Positions 12,204 to 21,744 of a stretch of DNA of 46,102 bases are shown here, piece after piece (positions within the stretch are counted from its first letter, which is position 1; every line of letters begins with the position of its first letter). Made by a program: the position numbers and the translations under genes. A model generated the notes under the pieces. The model saw only the letters and a program-made list of their open reading frames with translations. It did no database searches and had not been told where the DNA came from. Source of the stretch: Tyzzerella sp. An114 (GTDB lineage: Bacteria; Bacillota; Clostridia; Lachnospirales; Anaerotignaceae); NCBI RefSeq assembly GCF_002161055.1, contig NZ_NFLT01000013.1, forward strand, positions 1-46,102, in the 5' to 3' direction.

Positions 12204-12403
12204 GTTTTGGGGAACAAAATTGTATTATTATACGTCAAAACAAATAAAATGTACTTTTGTAATGAAATTGAAAGAATTAATTAGTATATATTGTATTTAA
12301 TAAAAGTCCATTTTATGTTAAAATTATAAAAAAATTAAAAAAATATTAGTAGATTATTAGTTTTATAATGATTTTTTTAATAAATAAAAGGGGGAAGATA
12401 ATT

Positions 12404-14617
12404 ATGAAACGCAAAATAGCGGTAACAATGGCCATGTTAATGGCTTGTTCTTCTGTTGTTCCAACTTTTGGTGCTGTAACATTTAAAGATATTGATGATG
12501 TGCCTTGGCAAGGAGCTCAGACATTTATAAATAGAGCCGGAGAGCTTGAAATTATGGTTGGAGAAGTTGTTGACGGAGAACGTTATTTCAGAGGTAAAGA
12601 CAACGTTACTTGTTTTGAGACTGTTCAGCTTGTGTATAGTATGCTTGATAAGACTGGAAACCTTAAGAGTACTGAAGGTGTTGAAAGCAAATGGTCTTAT
12701 GTTATGAAACAGTTGAGTGTTCCTGAATGGGCATATCCTTGTATTTCTTATTCTCTTGAATATGGAATAGTTTCTATGTCAGAGGTTGGAAAATTTACAA
12801 ATGCATCAAAGGGAACTCCTACATATGCAACACGTGAAGCAGCAGCTGTAATACTTGGAAAAGCTATGTCTGATAAGTATACTCTTGATACAGATGCTAA
12901 ACTTTCATTTAGTGATGCATCTTCTGTAAATGACACAAGTGTTCAGTATGTAGAACTTCTTGCTAGACTTGAAATTTTCCTTGGAGATTATAATAACAAT
13001 TTCAATCCTAAAGTTGCCATAAATAGAGCTGAAATGGCTACAATAATAACAAAGGCTTATGATAAAATGAATACAGGAAGCTCAAACAATGAAGATAATA
13101 ATAATTCATCAGAAACTGAACAGCCTTCAACTGGAACAACTATTGCAGCAGGAAGTGTTATATCTGTAAACGATATGGGTTCATCATATCTTGTTACAAT
13201 ACTTAAGAGTGATGGAGATAAAATAGGTCTTTTTGCAAGTTCTTCAACAACTGTAACAAATATTGGAGGAGGAACTTCAACATATACTGCTCTTTCTGCT
13301 GGAGATACTCTTAAAGATATTACTTATAGTGGAGCTGACATAAAGAGTCTTACAATAACATATGATGCTGACCCTGGTCTCAATCAGAACATAGGTAAAG
13401 TTGAAGGTACTATTGATGAGATATATAACGATATTGTTTATATAAATAAGAGTACAGGCGGTACAGCTAAATATTATATAAATGTAAATTGTGATTATAT
13501 TCTTGACGGAAAGACTGCTTCACAGAAAGATATATTTGATGCTTATAAAAAAGGCAGAGTTGATGTATCGGTAAGTCTTAATGTTAAAGGTGAGGCTACA
13601 AAACTTGATTGTACTACTAAAGAAAGTGATTATATGTACGGTGAACTTAGAAGTATATCAAGAAGTGGTCTTACAATAAAGAAATCAGGAAGAACATACA
13701 CAACAGATTATAGTTGGATAAATGGTGAATCTGACGATGTTGATTTCTATCTTGAAGGTAAGAATTCATCATATACAGATGTAAGAGATGCTTTTGATAG
13801 TTATAGTACAACATATGTAAAATATGTTACAGACAGTAGAGATGACGTTAAGAGACTTTATGTTTCAAAATATGATTTTGAAGATAATAGCAGCAGTGAT
13901 GGTACTTATAAAGGTACAATAAATGATGTAAGCAGAAGATATGTAAACTTTAAGAAATCAGGTTCAAGTTCATATAAAGAATATAATTTTAAGGGTGATG
14001 ATATTGATAACGCAACTCTTAAAATTGACGGAAAAACATATGATTACTATGATTTCAGAGACAAGCTTGACAGTGCAGGCACTTTATCTGTAACAATAGA
14101 AGTTAACAGTAAAGATGAAGTTACAAGAATTACTGCTACAACAACAAGTAGTTCTGATACATCAGGAGTAATAAAGAGCATGACATCATCAACAATAGCA
14201 ATAGGTTCATCATCAAATAAATATGATATTGCTAGTGGTGTAAGTGTTTCAATAGATGGAAACAGCGATTATAATATTGATGACCTTAGAAAATTTGTTG
14301 ATGATAGATATATAACAATGGAAGCTAACTTAACAATAAAATCATCTAAAGTAACAAAAATTGAAGCTCATATTAAAAAAGTTGAGGGTGATCTTAGATA
14401 CTTTGACAGCAGACGTGGAGAGCTTGAAGTTAGAACTCCAGACAGAACAACAATGGCCTTTGATTTTAAAACATCAACTCTTAATGTAAAAGGTGATGAA
14501 AGGTCTGTTGATGACCTTGAATATTACATGAATGACAAGGGTAGAGAATATGAAGTTGTTGTTGAGGTTGACCCTTCAAATGGATATGCTTCAACTATAA
14601 CTGTAACAGAAATATAA
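12404..14617 (+). CDS. SLH-domain cell-surface protein with five tandem C-terminal repeats
   Basis: A 737-residue secreted protein. Residues 1-24 form a signal peptide (MKRK basic start, hydrophobic core, likely cleavage after TFGA). Three degenerate S-layer-homology modules follow (about 24-83, 96-157 and 168-222) for non-covalent cell-wall anchoring. Next are a Ser/Asn/Thr linker (about 224-245), a beta-rich domain, and five related repeats of about 75-85 residues (about 331-408, 410-495, 499-584, 585-658, 659-737). Each repeat has a G-x-I/L start, a central short DG- or EG-containing segment, a D-L/F/V-R-type helix and a closing V-T/K-x-I strand. No enzyme motif was seen, so a structural or adhesive S-layer role is inferred. 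ATG 12404 follows AGGGGGA; the in-frame ATG at 12368 would displace the signal peptide. Confidence 0.85.
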   Translation: MKRKIAVTMAMLMACSSVVPTFGAVTFKDIDDVPWQGAQTFINRAGELEIMVGEVVDGERYFRGKDNVTCFETVQLVYSMLDKTGNLKSTEGVESKWSYVMKQLSVPEWAYPCISYSLEYGIVSMSEVGKFTNASKGTPTYATREAAAVILGKAMSDKYTLDTDAKLSFSDASSVNDTSVQYVELLARLEIFLGDYNNNFNPKVAINRAEMATIITKAYDKMNTGSSNNEDNNNSSETEQPSTGTTIAAGSVISVNDMGSSYLVTILKSDGDKIGLFASSSTTVTNIGGGTSTYTALSAGDTLKDITYSGADIKSLTITYDADPGLNQNIGKVEGTIDEIYNDIVYINKSTGGTAKYYINVNCDYILDGKTASQKDIFDAYKKGRVDVSVSLNVKGEATKLDCTTKESDYMYGELRSISRSGLTIKKSGRTYTTDYSWINGESDDVDFYLEGKNSSYTDVRDAFDSYSTTYVKYVTDSRDDVKRLYVSKYDFEDNSSSDGTYKGTINDVSRRYVNFKKSGSSSYKEYNFKGDDIDNATLKIDGKTYDYYDFRDKLDSAGTLSVTIEVNSKDEVTRITATTTSSSDTSGVIKSMTSSTIAIGSSSNKYDIASGVSVSIDGNSDYNIDDLRKFVDDRYITMEANLTIKSSKVTKIEAHIKKVEGDLRYFDSRRGELEVRTPDRTTMAFDFKTSTLNVKGDERSVDDLEYYMNDKGREYEVVVEVDPSNGYASTITVTEI

Positions 14618-16371: not shown

Positions 16372-17064
16372 ATGGGTAAAAAAATACTTGTCGTTGATGA
16401 CGAAAAGGCTATTGCCAATATTATTAAATTTAATTTGAAAAAGGAAGGATATGATGTAATTACAGCGGAAGATGGGGAAATGGGAGTTATAAAGGCTTTT
16501 ACAGAAAATCCTGACCTTATACTTTTAGATATTATGATGCCTAAAATTGATGGATATGAGGCTTGTAAGAGAATTCGTGAGAAAATGTCAACTCCAATAA
16601 TAATGCTTACTGCAAGAGCTGAGGAGGTTGATAAAGTTTTAGGTCTTGAGCTTGGGGCTGATGACTATGTTACAAAGCCTTTCGGTATAAGAGAGCTTAT
16701 GGCGAGAGTTAAAGCTAATCTTAGAAAATATGACGCTGTCATAAAAACATCTGAAATGTCATCTAATATTATAGATTTTGGTAGACTTGTTATAGACCTT
16801 GACAGATATGAAGTTAAAAAAGATGGAAATGTAATTGATTTAACATTCAGAGAGTTTGAGCTTTTAAAATTCCTTGCACAGCAGAAATCACAAGTATTTT
16901 CAAGAGAAGTTCTCCTTGAAAAAGTTTGGGGCTATGAGTATTTTGGAGATGTTAGAACTGTTGATGTTACCATAAGACGTTTGAGAGAAAAAATTGAAGA
17001 TGACCCGGGAAAACCTTCTTATATACTCACTAAAAGAGGAGTAGGCTATTATTTTAATAGCTGA
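16372..17064 (+). CDS. walR: OmpR/PhoB-family response regulator WalR (YycF)
   Basis: A 230-residue response regulator. The receiver domain (about 3-118) has the acidic pocket DDE (residues 9-11), phosphoacceptor D53 in LLDIMMP, the T of MLTARAEE and K of VTKPFG. The C-terminal winged-helix DNA-binding domain (about 132-229) includes [14 protein letters not shown] and [20 protein letters not shown]. It sits before a WalK-like kinase and the yycH, yycI, walJ and rlmH genes, the gene set that defines the wal (yyc) system controlling cell-wall metabolism in Firmicutes. That context supports WalR over PhoP or PhoB. GGAGG is 7 nt before the ATG. A TGTWAH-N5-TGTWAH target lies downstream at 18946-18962. 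Confidence 0.9.
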
Positions 17065-17084
17065 TTTTAAGGTCTGGTGTGTTT

Positions 17085-18884
17085 ATGAAAATTAAAGAGA
17101 GTATAAAATATAAACTTATTATAATGTATCTTGGACTTGTTCTTATTGTTATGATTGTAAGCGGAACTTATATACTTTTAAGTCTCCAAAATATAGAACA
17201 GGATAAGGCTAAAACTCAACTTGAACTTTATACAGAGAGAATTAATGAGCAAGTTATTTCCGGAGGAGATGAGGAAAAATTTCAAGAGGAGCTTTTGAAA
17301 TTTTCACAGGGAGGCTCTAGTATATCAAATACTCAAGGAAATATAATAAATTCTAAAGGAAATACTATTGCTTCCACAACTGTTGTTGAGCCACCTTTCC
17401 CTCAATATAGAAATGCTTCTGTAATATCTGCTCTTTCAGGTACAGAGTCCTTTGATATGTTTAAGAGAAGTACAGATACTTCCGGTCTTGCTAAGTATTG
17501 GATAAGCTATGCTTCACCTGTAAAAGATGCAGAGGGTAATGTTAAATATGTGATATTTTCAAGAATAGATGCTAGTGATATAAAAGCAGGTCTTGAACAG
17601 ACGAGAAAAAGTATAATAATTGCTGTTCTTTTGGCATTTTCCCTTACTATTGTAATGGGATATGTTTTTGCAAAAACTATTACAGGTCCAATTCTTGAAC
17701 TTACATCAAAGGCAAAAGCTCTTGCCGGTGGAAATCTTAATCAACAAGTTGTTGTTAAGTCTAAAGATGAAATAGGTCAGCTTACAGTTAGCTTTAATAA
17801 TATGGCTCAAGAGCTGGACAAAAATATAAAAATTATATCTAATGAAAAAAATAAACTTGAAATAATACTCCATAATATGAGTGATGGTGTAATTTCCTAT
17901 GACAGTTTAGGAAATCTTATTCATGTTAATAGTGCCGCTATGGATATGCTTGAAGTTTCGGAATTTAATATGAGTTTTACAGATTTTATAAAAGAGTTTA
18001 ATTTAAGTGAAAGTCTTTATATTAATGTAACTTCTGAAAATTCAAAGAAAATTACATTTCCAATAGGAAAAAAATTTATAACAGCAAACTTTACACCTTA
18101 CTATAGAGAAGAAGACGTAATTGATGGTATTGTTGTTGTTCTTCAGGATATAACAGAGGCTAAAAAACTTGATGATATGCGAAAAGAGTTCGTTGCAAAT
18201 GTTTCTCATGAGCTTAGAACACCTCTTACAACAGTAAAAAGTTATACTGAAACTCTTATGGATGGGGCTGTGGAAGATATTGAAATAGCTATGGAATTTT
18301 TGGGTATTATAAATAGTGAGGCTGATAGAATGTCTTTCCTTGTCCATGACCTTTTACAGCTTTCTCGATTTGATAATAAACAAATTGTGCTTTCAGTATC
18401 TGAAATAGAGCTTAATAGATATATGACTGAAATTGTTAAACAAAACAAAATTCATGCCGATGCAAAAGAACAAAATCTTTATTTTATACCTTATAAAAAT
18501 GATGTTTATATAAAAGGTGACCGTGACAGAATAACACAGGTAGTAAATAATATAATAACAAATGCAATAAAATATAGTTATGAAAAAGCTGAAATAAAGG
18601 CTTTTATAGATGAAGATGCAAATTATTATAAATTGACAATAAAAGATACGGGAATGGGTATACAGAAAGAGGATATTTCAAGAATATTCGAGAGATTTTA
18701 TCGTGTTGATAAAGCAAGAAGTCGTGCTATGGGTGGAACAGGTTTAGGACTTGCCATAGCTAAAGAGATTATGGAAATACACAAAGGCAAAATTACTGTT
18801 GAGAGTGAATATGGAAAAGGAACTGCCATGACAATATGGTTTAATAAAAAATTTGATGAAAATAGTATTGAAAAAGATATTTAA
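17085..18884 (+). CDS. walK: sensor histidine kinase WalK (YycG)
   Basis: A 599-residue membrane kinase that should phosphorylate WalR. A first membrane helix near residues 11-33 is followed by an extracytoplasmic sensor of about 140 residues, a second helix near 175-198, a HAMP segment (about 199-250), a PAS domain (about 260-365), HisKA with the H-box FVANVSHELRTPLTT (His about 375), and a HATPase domain with N-box NNIITNAIKYS (about 487), DTGMGI (about 520), FERFYRVDKARS and GGTGLGLAIA (about 550). This layout is that of WalK. ATG 17085 is preferred, with only a weak AAGG upstream; GTG 17079 is possible and would add two residues. It lies 20 nt after walR and is probably co-transcribed. 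Confidence 0.9.
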   Translation: MKIKESIKYKLIIMYLGLVLIVMIVSGTYILLSLQNIEQDKAKTQLELYTERINEQVISGGDEEKFQEELLKFSQGGSSISNTQGNIINSKGNTIASTTVVEPPFPQYRNASVISALSGTESFDMFKRSTDTSGLAKYWISYASPVKDAEGNVKYVIFSRIDASDIKAGLEQTRKSIIIAVLLAFSLTIVMGYVFAKTITGPILELTSKAKALAGGNLNQQVVVKSKDEIGQLTVSFNNMAQELDKNIKIISNEKNKLEIILHNMSDGVISYDSLGNLIHVNSAAMDMLEVSEFNMSFTDFIKEFNLSESLYINVTSENSKKITFPIGKKFITANFTPYYREEDVIDGIVVVLQDITEAKKLDDMRKEFVANVSHELRTPLTTVKSYTETLMDGAVEDIEIAMEFLGIINSEADRMSFLVHDLLQLSRFDNKQIVLSVSEIELNRYMTEIVKQNKIHADAKEQNLYFIPYKNDVYIKGDRDRITQVVNNIITNAIKYSYEKAEIKAFIDEDANYYKLTIKDTGMGIQKEDISRIFERFYRVDKARSRAMGGTGLGLAIAKEIMEIHKGKITVESEYGKGTAMTIWFNKKFDENSIEKDI

Positions 18885-18923: not shown

Positions 18924-18978
18924 TGTAATTCAAACGTAAGGCTCGTGTAACATAAATGTAACATTACTGTTTTATAAT
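18924..18978 (+). promoter_or_regulatory. WalR-type operator array and promoter inside the wal cluster
   Basis: Four half-sites start at 18924, 18935, 18946 and 18957, exactly 11 bp apart: TGTAAT, CGTAAG, TGTAAC, TGTAAC. The last two form TGTAAC-ATAAA-TGTAAC, a perfect match to the published WalR consensus TGTWAH-N5-TGTWAH. A perfect TATAAT follows at 18973-18978, ten bases after the box. The box therefore occupies the -35 region, the usual geometry for activation by PhoB/OmpR-family regulators. No conventional -35 is seen. The promoter faces the secreted-protein, yycH and yycI genes. Confidence 0.7.
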
Positions 18979-19032
18979 GTCTATACATGGATTTAAAACT
19001 ATAAAATAGCAAGGGAAGGAGGCTGCATAGAG

Positions 19033-19491
19033 ATGAAAACTAAATTTTTAGCATTGTTTGTGCTTTTGTTTATGTTTATTGCTCCAACTTTCGCTTATGC
19101 AGACCAGTTTTCTTCTTCCAATAAGGTAGAATTTTCTGTTACAAGCGGAGTTGAGCTTGGAGGTACAGAGTCAACTTTTGATAAACTTAGAACTATAACA
19201 GGTTCTAGTGAAAATGGTTCTCTTATTTCCATAACACTTAGCAAAAAAAATGCTAGTGGAACGCTTAATGAGTACGCAAGCTATGAAATAGAGATAGGTC
19301 CTACTGGTCTGTTTAGTCAGACTGTTGAGCTTGAACTCGGAGAAAATATAGTTTCTGTATCTGCGGATAAAGAAGGTAAAAACTCAAGTTATGGTGAATG
19401 TGTTATAAAAAGAAAAAAACGTGAAATAAAAACAGAGCTTGAGAATGGAATAAGTATACCGGGTATGAGCACCACGGTAGTTTTATATTAA
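19033..19491 (+). CDS. small secreted protein of unknown function in the wal cluster
   Basis: A 152-residue exported protein. Residues 1-23 form a signal peptide (MKTK, hydrophobic core, likely cleavage after FAYA). The mature part is predicted mostly beta strand with Ser/Thr/Gly turns and a segment, GPTGLFSQTVELELGENIVSV (residues about 94-114), that resembles the strand pattern of bacterial Ig-like domains. No enzyme motif or membrane anchor is seen. AAGGGAAGGAGG lies 8 to 10 nt upstream of the ATG. The gene is inserted between walK and yycH, a position empty in Bacillus, directly behind a promoter with a WalR box. It may be an extracytoplasmic input or output of the WalKR pathway; this is inference from position. 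Confidence 0.75.
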   Translation: MKTKFLALFVLLFMFIAPTFAYADQFSSSNKVEFSVTSGVELGGTESTFDKLRTITGSSENGSLISITLSKKNASGTLNEYASYEIEIGPTGLFSQTVELELGENIVSVSADKEGKNSSYGECVIKRKKREIKTELENGISIPGMSTTVVLY

Positions 19492-19509
19492 TACACAACG
19501 GTGATAATT

Positions 19510-20898
19510 ATGAGACTTAGCAGAATACAAAATTTTGTAATCATTGCTTTGGTCATAGCTGCCGTGATTCAGACAGGAAAGTTATGGCTTTATAATAACG
19601 ATAGCCATAACTTTTTTTATACAGTTTTTCAGAATATAGGGAAAAATAATATAAAATACAGTGGTGAAACTTATATATTGGAACCTTTAGAAATTGTTGC
19701 AGGTTATGGTAATAAAAAGTTTTCGAAGTTTTATGCACAGTCTGATGAAACAGGTTTATATGAACAAGGTAACGATGCAATTTTTGAAGTCCTTACAAAA
19801 GGTGAGTTTGTTAAAGAGTCAGAGTTGGAATGGAACTCTGTTTTGGCATCAAAATGTGTTATTTTTAAATATGCTCATGCTATAACTCTTGATGATTTTG
19901 AGGACGGATTTGAAAAAAATAATGTTTTTGAAAAATATATTGAATTTGATAGTATAGTAATATATTCTCAAATGAACTATGGTTCTATTTTGAGAGTTTT
20001 ATTTATAAATTCACAGACGGAAAAAGTTTATGAGTGTAATGTATCGAAAAGTAAGTCTGCACAAAATTTGTATAATACATTGGAAAAAGCACAAAATGAA
20101 GAAATGAAATCAGATAATTTTATAACCTATATATCAACTAAACAGAGTGGTTTTAATATATTTTCTGATGATATTTTTGTTCCCCAATGGTCTGAAACTG
20201 AATTTGTGTATCCTGTGTTAAAAAGAGTAAATCCTTTTGAAAAAAATGGAGAGTTTTCTTTGGCAACTCTTGAAATGTATATTGACCAATTTTTTGATAG
20301 TAGTACATCAAAATGGAGTGAAACTGATAATACAGGAACTTATCTTTTTAGTGATGATGATATTGTTGTAAAGTATATGACAACAGGTCTTCTTGAATAT
20401 TATAATTATGAGCCTATTGATAGAAGTATAAATCAAAGTTTTATAACTTCGTATTCGGTAGCTAAAAGTTTTATTGAGCAAGACACATCTCTTAAAACTG
20501 ATGTATATTTAGCAGATTGGGAAATAAATGAAGATGAGGCTGTTTATTATTTTAATTATACAGTAAATAATATGCCTCTTATACCTTCTGATGTTTTATC
20601 AAATATGACAGATATGAAATATTGTATTGAGATAAGTGTAAAAAATAACAGCGTAAAAAAATATCGAAGAATTGCTTATAACTATTCTAAAGATAATAAA
20701 ACTGCTGTTGCTGATAAAGAGTTTATAAAGGCTCTTGATGAAACTATTACAGTTATGTATGAAAATAACAGCGAAAACATAGTAACTAATGTTCAGGACA
20801 TAAAACTTGGATACTATATGAGTGGTAGAGATATTTTAAAACTCAAATGGTTTACAACAATAAATGGAGAAGTCCATTCTGTGGATTGCGAAAAATAG
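19510..20898 (+). CDS. yycH: YycH-like regulatory protein of WalK
   Basis: A 462-residue single-pass membrane protein with a short cytoplasmic start, a membrane helix near residues 8-26 (FVIIALVIAAVIQTGKLWLY) and a large extracytoplasmic domain. This topology, the length (about 455 in Bacillus), the KLWLY segment after the helix and the position after walK and before a YycI-like gene identify it as YycH. YycH and YycI contact the WalK membrane helices and modulate kinase activity. Sequence conservation in this family is low, so the call relies largely on context. ATG 19510 is preferred, with GGTGA just upstream; GTG 19501 would add three residues. The gene starts 18 nt after the secreted-protein gene. 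Confidence 0.75.
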   Translation: MRLSRIQNFVIIALVIAAVIQTGKLWLYNNDSHNFFYTVFQNIGKNNIKYSGETYILEPLEIVAGYGNKKFSKFYAQSDETGLYEQGNDAIFEVLTKGEFVKESELEWNSVLASKCVIFKYAHAITLDDFEDGFEKNNVFEKYIEFDSIVIYSQMNYGSILRVLFINSQTEKVYECNVSKSKSAQNLYNTLEKAQNEEMKSDNFITYISTKQSGFNIFSDDIFVPQWSETEFVYPVLKRVNPFEKNGEFSLATLEMYIDQFFDSSTSKWSETDNTGTYLFSDDDIVVKYMTTGLLEYYNYEPIDRSINQSFITSYSVAKSFIEQDTSLKTDVYLADWEINEDEAVYYFNYTVNNMPLIPSDVLSNMTDMKYCIEISVKNNSVKKYRRIAYNYSKDNKTAVADKEFIKALDETITVMYENNSENIVTNVQDIKLGYYMSGRDILKLKWFTTINGEVHSVDCEK

Positions 20899-20907
20899 GA
20901 GGTTATT

Positions 20908-21744
20908 ATGGACTGGAGCATAGCTAAAAAAACAGTTATAATTATACTTATAGTGCTTAATGTCTGCCTCTTTGTGCTTAATAGAAATGAAAAAGATGAT
21001 TTTAAAATTTCTCCAGCAAGAGAAAAATCAGCTATTGAAGTTTTGGCAAAAAGAGATGTATATATTTATACTGATATAATAGAAGATTACTCTCCAAAGA
21101 GAAAAATAAAAGTAAAACCTATTACAGTTACTCGTGAAAGTATTGAAGATACATTTTTTGAAAATGAAGATATAAAAATTTCAATAGAGTTTGATAGAGA
21201 TATACTTAAAAGTGATACTAAAACAGTATCCTATAAAGGTAATGATGTTATAGTTTATTATAATCAATCTGATGAAATAAATGAAAATTTTAATGTTAAA
21301 ACTGCACGAGAACAGGCAGATTTAGTTTTATCACAATCTGCTGGGAAATCAAATAGATTTGCACTTTTAAATACTGTTGAAAATGATGGTGAATATACTT
21401 TTACATACTGTGAAAAGTATAAAGGACAATTTGTTTATAGCAGTAGATATGATATAACTGTTAATAATAAGGGCGTAAAAACGGCGAATATAAAGTTTTG
21501 TGAAATAGAAGGTTATTCAGATGATAAAATTGAAATTTATGGTGCAGACGAGGCTCTTTTTACATTCTCTGATTTTATAGGGAAAAGTGCTACTGTAAAC
21601 AGAATTGAGATTGTTTATGATTATCCTTCAGATGACAATCCTGATGTTGATATGTCAACTAAGCTTGTTCCATATTACTTTATTTTTGTTATGGATAGGG
21701 ACCAGCCTTATATGGTTAACGCCTATACAAATAAAATTAAATAG
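20908..21744 (+). CDS. yycI: YycI-like regulatory protein of WalK
   Basis: A 278-residue single-pass membrane protein. The N-terminus MDWSIAKKTVIIILIVLNV (membrane helix about residues 8-25) closely follows the YycI signature, a DWS-x-x-K start and then a helix ending in LNxxL. The extracytoplasmic remainder is mixed alpha/beta with a C-terminal VPYYFIFVMD segment typical of YycH/YycI-type domains. Length agrees with Bacillus YycI (280). AGGAGG lies 6 nt before the ATG, 9 nt after yycH, so both are translated from one message. With YycH it should form the membrane complex that tunes WalK. Two terminators downstream separate it from murA. Confidence 0.85.
   Translation: MDWSIAKKTVIIILIVLNVCLFVLNRNEKDDFKISPAREKSAIEVLAKRDVYIYTDIIEDYSPKRKIKVKPITVTRESIEDTFFENEDIKISIEFDRDILKSDTKTVSYKGNDVIVYYNQSDEINENFNVKTAREQADLVLSQSAGKSNRFALLNTVENDGEYTFTYCEKYKGQFVYSSRYDITVNNKGVKTANIKFCEIEGYSDDKIEIYGADEALFTFSDFIGKSATVNRIEIVYDYPSDDNPDVDMSTKLVPYYFIFVMDRDQPYMVNAYTNKIK

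Follow-up and report, generated by a model that had tools for sequence, protein, structure and literature searches.

Our comparisons support the array at positions 18924–18978 of the window (the whole stretch of 46,102 nucleotides from Tyzzerella sp. An114 that was analysed) as a genuine promoter element of the WalR type that has been strongly conserved. It goes with the accessory operon, which encodes a small secreted protein, a YycH-like protein and YycI, and not with walK, because nine genomes keep the array with this operon away from walK. We consider it likely that 18924–18978 is an activator-dependent sigma-A promoter, driven by phosphorylated WalR, that transcribes the accessory operon.

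The array consists of four direct boxes on the forward strand: TGTAAT (box 1, 18924–18929), the deviant CGTAAG (box 2, 18935–18940) and two copies of TGTAAC (box 3, 18946–18951; box 4, 18957–18962). The −10 element TATAAT follows on the same strand at 18973–18978, starting 10 bp past the end of box 4 without overlap with the array, and a ribosome-binding site, AAGGAGG, lies at 19016–19022 (forward strand). An earlier note had reported these letters and starts with their 11-bp step, a perfect TATAAT without a usable −35, and a last pair forming a perfect WalR box, and direct reading bears out all of these points. The best −35 hexamer at a spacing of 15–19 bp matches TTGACA at only two of six positions, and 18946–18962 is a perfect pair of half-sites with a 5-bp spacer, TGTWAH-N5-TGTWAH, which together with the next A also fits TGTWAHA-N4-TGTWAHA. 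The further description of all four boxes as WalR half-sites needs correction at box 2: CGTAAG has two mismatches to TGTWAH, boxes 1 and 2 form no consensus pair, and box 2 fits TGTWAH in only 2 of the 65 conserved copies described below. Transcription would be expected to start near 18985, which would place the four boxes at about −61 to −23 and box 4 at about −28 to −23.

The gene order is walR, walK, a 148-bp gap, the small secreted gene, the YycH-like gene, yycI and then a frame that is murA-like by eye; all genes from walR to yycI lie on the forward strand. The response regulator WalR (YycF, 16372–17064) scores 341.4 bits against the NCBIfam YycF equivalog, above the cut-off of 340. The gene at 17079–18884 encodes a WalK-type sensor histidine kinase with Pfam HAMP, HisKA and HATPase domains and a weak PAS match; its best NCBIfam family is HK_WalK, although its 489.9 bits stay below the cut-off of 725. 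A separate SLH-domain surface protein is encoded close upstream of the wal cluster (12368–14617).

The first gene of the promoter's operon (19033–19491) encodes a protein of 152 aa, recognised by alignment and, by eye, by a signal-like N-terminus. According to its model (pLDDT 83.8), it is probably one Ig-like beta-sandwich domain; it has a weak match to Glucodextran_B/Big_6, below the cut-off, and a fold search returned only generic beta-sandwich matches, none of them convincing. The YycH-like protein (19501–20898, 465 aa) is named from its conserved place in the operon and its topology only, as 21 members gave no YycH family match in Pfam and none in PDB sequences. YycI (20908–21744, 278 aa) is identified through Pfam in relatives and through its fold. 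PF09648 is matched by 14 of 21 aligned YycI members at E ≤ 1 (best 3.1e-12) and not by the window protein itself, whose model matches Bacillus subtilis YycI (2o3o; Foldseek E 3e-8, TM 0.49–0.58) and the WALK-YYCH model 9a5d (E 7e-8); its best fold match is 5coz, an uncharacterised protein of E. rectale (E 7e-10). The operon of secreted protein, yycH and yycI that the earlier note had named is thus upheld at YycI, and its yycH is carried by position and topology only.

A lone box pair is weak evidence, because the perfect TGTWAH-N5-TGTWAH matches four times in the window (two of the matches being one place read on both strands) against 1.07 expected from shuffles. The four-box array is not a product of chance, and no other site in the genome is of comparable quality. 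Four YGTAA boxes in 11-bp phase with at most two mismatches occur at three places in the 2.75-Mb genome, namely the array itself (no mismatch), its copy one box off and one other place (two mismatches), and the same pattern written backwards had no match in the genome. Phases of 9, 10, 12 and 13 bp gave nothing within one mismatch in the window; 11 bp gives the array. Under the sequence model R1 the array reaches 55 bits; the runner-up among the matches listed for the genome (150 of 6792 candidates scored) reaches 16.5.

Within the order, the small secreted protein was matched in 69 of 98 genomes, its own included, and 68 loci were scanned over 450 bp upstream of its gene; the remaining one (G081) was left out because the protein match begins at base 1 of the contig. 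The scan fixes the 11-bp phase, and the highest score among 2040 dinucleotide shuffles was 19.7. The best upstream array exceeded this maximum in 65 of the 68 loci (own included), four of them barely (20.1–20.2), so that the phase, whose loss in relatives keeping the downstream gene had been named as grounds for giving up the idea, is retained. As for the other three loci, R1 places the array of G034 (L042) and G079 (L067) farther upstream than the 450 bp scanned, and in G085 the protein match falls within an unrelated frame of 1027 aa, with an array elsewhere on the contig behind a walK. Nine more matches come from other families of the order, eight of them behind a walK-like end and the ninth not. 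A scan of named genomes yielded a single locus, in Candidatus Fimicola merdigallinarum (a genus in Lachnospirales), where the small protein is 76% identical. In family f6 of the order, YycI was found in none of the nine genomes listed and a weak array match in one of the nine (G230, 26.4 bits); operon and array seem to have been lost together there.

The 65 copies resemble one another in detail. Although the scan did not require it, a perfect TATAAT stands at offset 49 in 52 of them, and seven more have a −10 with five of the six letters; no copy has a −35 with more than three of six matches. TGTWAH is fitted by box 1 in 48 copies and by boxes 3 and 4 in 62 each; boxes 3 and 4 together make a perfect TGTWAH-N5-TGTWAH in 59 copies and TGTWAHA-N4-TGTWAHA in 42. 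Box 3 has GTAA in every one of the 65 copies and box 4 in almost all; the usual form of box 1 is TGTWA and that of box 2 NGTAAG. The spacers between boxes 1 and 2 (AA) and between boxes 3 and 4 (two A) are partly kept and that between boxes 2 and 3 is not, a pattern that suggests two dimer units and agrees with the two-unit reading put forward in the earlier note. The alignment of the arrays (A1) has 58 rows: of the 65, a duplicate and six rows that were weak or out of register were omitted, and one row kept (L070) is shifted by one box.

In the loci of relatives, walK and walR were recognised by end motifs or by eye, except in the search for walK elsewhere in the nine genomes mentioned above. 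Within the 700 bp upstream, 56 of the 68 loci show a walK end motif; of the 12 without it, nine have a strong array. Each of these nine carries its walK at another place: on a different contig in seven, at a distance of about 15 kb in G016 and about 2.8 kb in G048. None of the eight readable ends of these displaced walK genes has an array within 400 bp. The description of the element as an internal promoter of the wal cluster is therefore too narrow: a promoter-type element of the accessory operon it is, but array and operon also occur away from walK.

Arrays of this kind turn up in many genomes across the class and in some genomes of other classes of the phylum. Among the class-level matches we examined 20 loci outside the order, of which 15 have a walK end upstream and the small secreted and YycH-like genes downstream and five do not; box 2 is often NTTAA there. 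A wider array model matched 104 of 291 class genomes at E ≤ 1e-4, and a YycI profile matched 141 of 291. The comparison of array and YycI took 137 of these 141 genomes, and of 139 array rows (one per genome) 71 precede a yycI in the same orientation, 1.9–3.9 kb away (median 2071 bp); the other 68 do not adjoin a listed YycI. For the 60 best arrays of the class sample, the same placement ahead of yycI holds in 51 cases. The Fisher value for this co-occurrence is only indicative, because some of the genomes counted (those of the 15 loci outside the order among them) had served to train models R1 and R2, and relatedness was uncorrected. At E ≤ 1e-5 the array was matched in 26 of the 299 genomes sampled from the phylum, its own among them. 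Eleven loci were examined among the 25 other matches: eight have walK, the array, and the small secreted and YycH-like genes (one of them with another gene between walK and the array), two have an array before walR and one has neither. By eye, the arrays before walR in these two loci, L193 (G432) and L196 (G386), are four-box arrays, an arrangement that would amount to direct autoregulation.

An adjacent array at E ≤ 1e-4 is missing in 66 of the 137 listed YycI genomes, in some through lost sensitivity and in at least five without any visible array. We examined 15 of these 66; as they were picked for lacking the match, they do not prove absence independently. In seven, a small secreted gene precedes yycH and an array or a degenerate array lies just ahead of that gene (scores 21.4–27.1); the lowest of them, L219, has three boxes, and by score the weakest are barely distinct. 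In five, the order is walR-walK-yycH-yycI, with neither the small gene nor an array (highest score at any position 19.2–21.2), and three are uninformative. The overall pattern is one of array and small secreted gene occurring together.

WalR is the best-supported candidate for the regulator of the array, because the protein passes the YycF cut-off, its recognition helix is that of 2zxj (near-identical in 2d1v, 6cqg, 2hwv and 5za3), boxes 3 and 4 fit the consensus, secondary sites precede a peptidoglycan hydrolase gene and genes for surface proteins, and the pst boxes of the genome differ. Second best in the genome under the array model is a site (16.5 bits, E 0.02) ahead of a gene for a secreted SH3-NlpC/P60 hydrolase, and such hydrolases are classical WalR targets. 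In relatives, 31 secondary regions (L104–L134), chosen from the upper matches listed, were read by eye, signal-like starts included; on this reading 24 of the 31 sites precede a gene with a signal-like start, 4 with boxes forward and 20 with boxes turned round, and TTGAC follows shortly downstream of the boxes in 12 of the 20 turned sites. Four more sites precede a frame of about 37 aa and three have no assigned gene. The ~37-aa frame is conserved (start MNFEKVVINS or alike) and has an array with TATAAT before it in L104, L105, L115 and L119, from genomes G034, G026, G052 and G014 of one genus; it is possibly a WalR-driven small protein. A turned WalR-type pair lies directly upstream of the promoters of secreted proteins of about 450 aa in L107, L108, L111, L113 and L114, five paralogues all in G004, and likewise in L091 of the own genome.

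The array might instead be a pho-box-like element of PhoP, PhoB or another OmpR-family regulator. PhoB boxes are tandem 11-bp direct repeats that replace the −35 element, and PhoB takes over the −35 role; the layout of the array is that of these boxes. The likeness of the WalR and PhoP consensus sequences is also stated in the part of PMC4168254 available, and the two box types differ by few letters. However, the upstream regions of pstS and pstC in the same genome carry TTAACA/TTTACA repeats, some of them 11 or 22 bp apart (L200, 4130–4287 and 5166–5327), which are probable PhoP boxes and whose letters the array does not share, and no R1 match falls at the pst regions among the best 20 listed (150 of 6792 candidates scored). 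Nor would a pho box be expected from the company of the array, which co-occurs with wal accessory genes, stands twice before walR, and has further sites ahead of a hydrolase and surface proteins. With different boxes at the pst promoters we rejected a pho box, and we regard this reading as a whole as quite improbable. Least probable is that the conservation is a by-product of the walK 3′ end or chance in AT-rich DNA. In many loci the array does begin close behind the walK stop codon or overlaps it, but it stays with the operon in the nine genomes without an adjacent walK, while the eight readable walK ends there lack it, and chance is opposed by the 65 of 68 loci that score above all shuffles, four of them by a narrow margin. 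The genome pattern scan, the shuffles and the nine walK-separated genomes led us to reject both.

A WalR-driven promoter would work as follows. Four direct WalR-type boxes in one-turn phase would stand in for the −35 element; sitting at about −61 to −23 with no −35 present, they point to an activator that does the work of the −35. Phosphorylated WalR would probably bind as two tandem dimers, strongly at boxes 3 and 4 and more weakly at boxes 1 and 2, reach to about −23 and recruit RNA polymerase to TATAAT in a PhoB-like manner. The promoter would then drive the small secreted protein, the YycH-like protein and YycI, the last two being of the known class of WalK modulators, and WalR output would set the level of these WalK helpers. 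It would do so separately from walRK. At the promoter of walRK itself there is no perfect WalR box pair: TGTWAH-N5-TGTWAH was found within 350 bp upstream of walR in none of 17 loci (the window and 16 of 20 loci where walR was found). WalR binding, activation, the two dimers and the feedback are all what we infer from sequence. Against this reading we count the systematic departure of box 2 from the consensus and the descriptions of Wal operons studied so far as not autoregulated (PMC9210968, PMC4801191). A rule from Staphylococcus aureus bears on the sign of the effect: according to PMC10746227, in part, WalR sites that lie between −35 and −10, or downstream of them, are associated with repression, and for a box between −35 and −10 the rule would predict repression rather than activation. 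WalR on the same array could accordingly repress the accessory operon, with boxes 3 and 4 (box 4 at about −28 to −23) blocking the promoter core, so that low WalR activity would raise the modulators. Yet with no −35 better than three of six in any of the 65 copies there is nothing obvious to make a basal promoter, and the array stops short of the −10. Repression seems unlikely to us, and activation by WalR is the reading that we carry forward.

WalRK is an essential, widely studied cell-wall regulator of Gram-positive bacteria. Tentatively, as something possible rather than probable, we propose that the array makes up one module with the small secreted protein, which is probably Ig-like; this module would insert between walK and yycH, be old in Clostridia and be present in further classes. 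The protein would be an unrecognised extracytoplasmic part of the Wal system, the array would give a steep, cooperative WalR readout, and feedback on WalK would run via an exported protein and not via the levels of WalR and WalK. Wal operons are called not autoregulated in print (PMC9210968, PMC4801191, as excerpted). A WalR-type promoter with boxes 3 and 4 nearly invariant in many Clostridia would mean that a large branch controls its WalK helpers by feedback; it would also point to a new exported Wal component and be a natural candidate WalR operator for binding studies. The role of YycH and YycI would become testable through their own regulation.

In its layout of tandem 11-bp repeats in place of −35, the array is like the pho boxes of PhoB and PhoP, from which its letters differ. 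The WalR (YycF/VicR) box of Bacillus, Staphylococcus and Streptococcus is TGTWAH-N5-TGTWAH, refined in S. mutans to TGTWAHA-N4-TGTWAHA (PMC4168254, in part); boxes 3 and 4 match both forms, and regulator family and recognition helix are alike. As in known WalR regulons, genes for hydrolases and surface proteins stand behind other sites here too. The order WalR, WalK, YycH-like protein and YycI is that of walRKHI in Bacilli (PMC4801191, in part). According to the same excerpt, the two promoters of S. aureus walRKHI lie ahead of walR and lack WalR sites, and walRK reportedly does not autoregulate; here, yycH has ahead of it one further gene, for a secreted protein, and a separate promoter of WalR type. 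The wal operon of Clostridioides difficile (walA-walR-walK-truA2), described as not autoregulated, as are those of other Firmicutes, in the available part of PMC9210968, likewise includes a gene for an extra extracytoplasmic protein. There, the gene for WalA, a predicted beta-propeller lipoprotein, stands ahead of walR (PMC9210968, in part), whereas here the small secreted gene follows walK and has its own promoter. Excerpts of reports on S. aureus differ on WalK modulators of the YycH/YycI class, which are activating in two (PMC5013275, PMC7355866) and without major effect in another (PMC4801191). Known WalR promoters have one pair or several separate pairs of boxes (lytE, PMC7299342; isaA, ssaA and dnaA, PMC10746227; both in part); here, four boxes in continuous 11-bp phase replace the −35 and are conserved at one operon. 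Among the matches listed, the titles and abstract openings of the open-licence literature did not describe such a promoter, and, so far as this literature reaches, the four-box WalR-type promoter at the yycH-yycI operon is a previously undescribed variation on the known WalR boxes.
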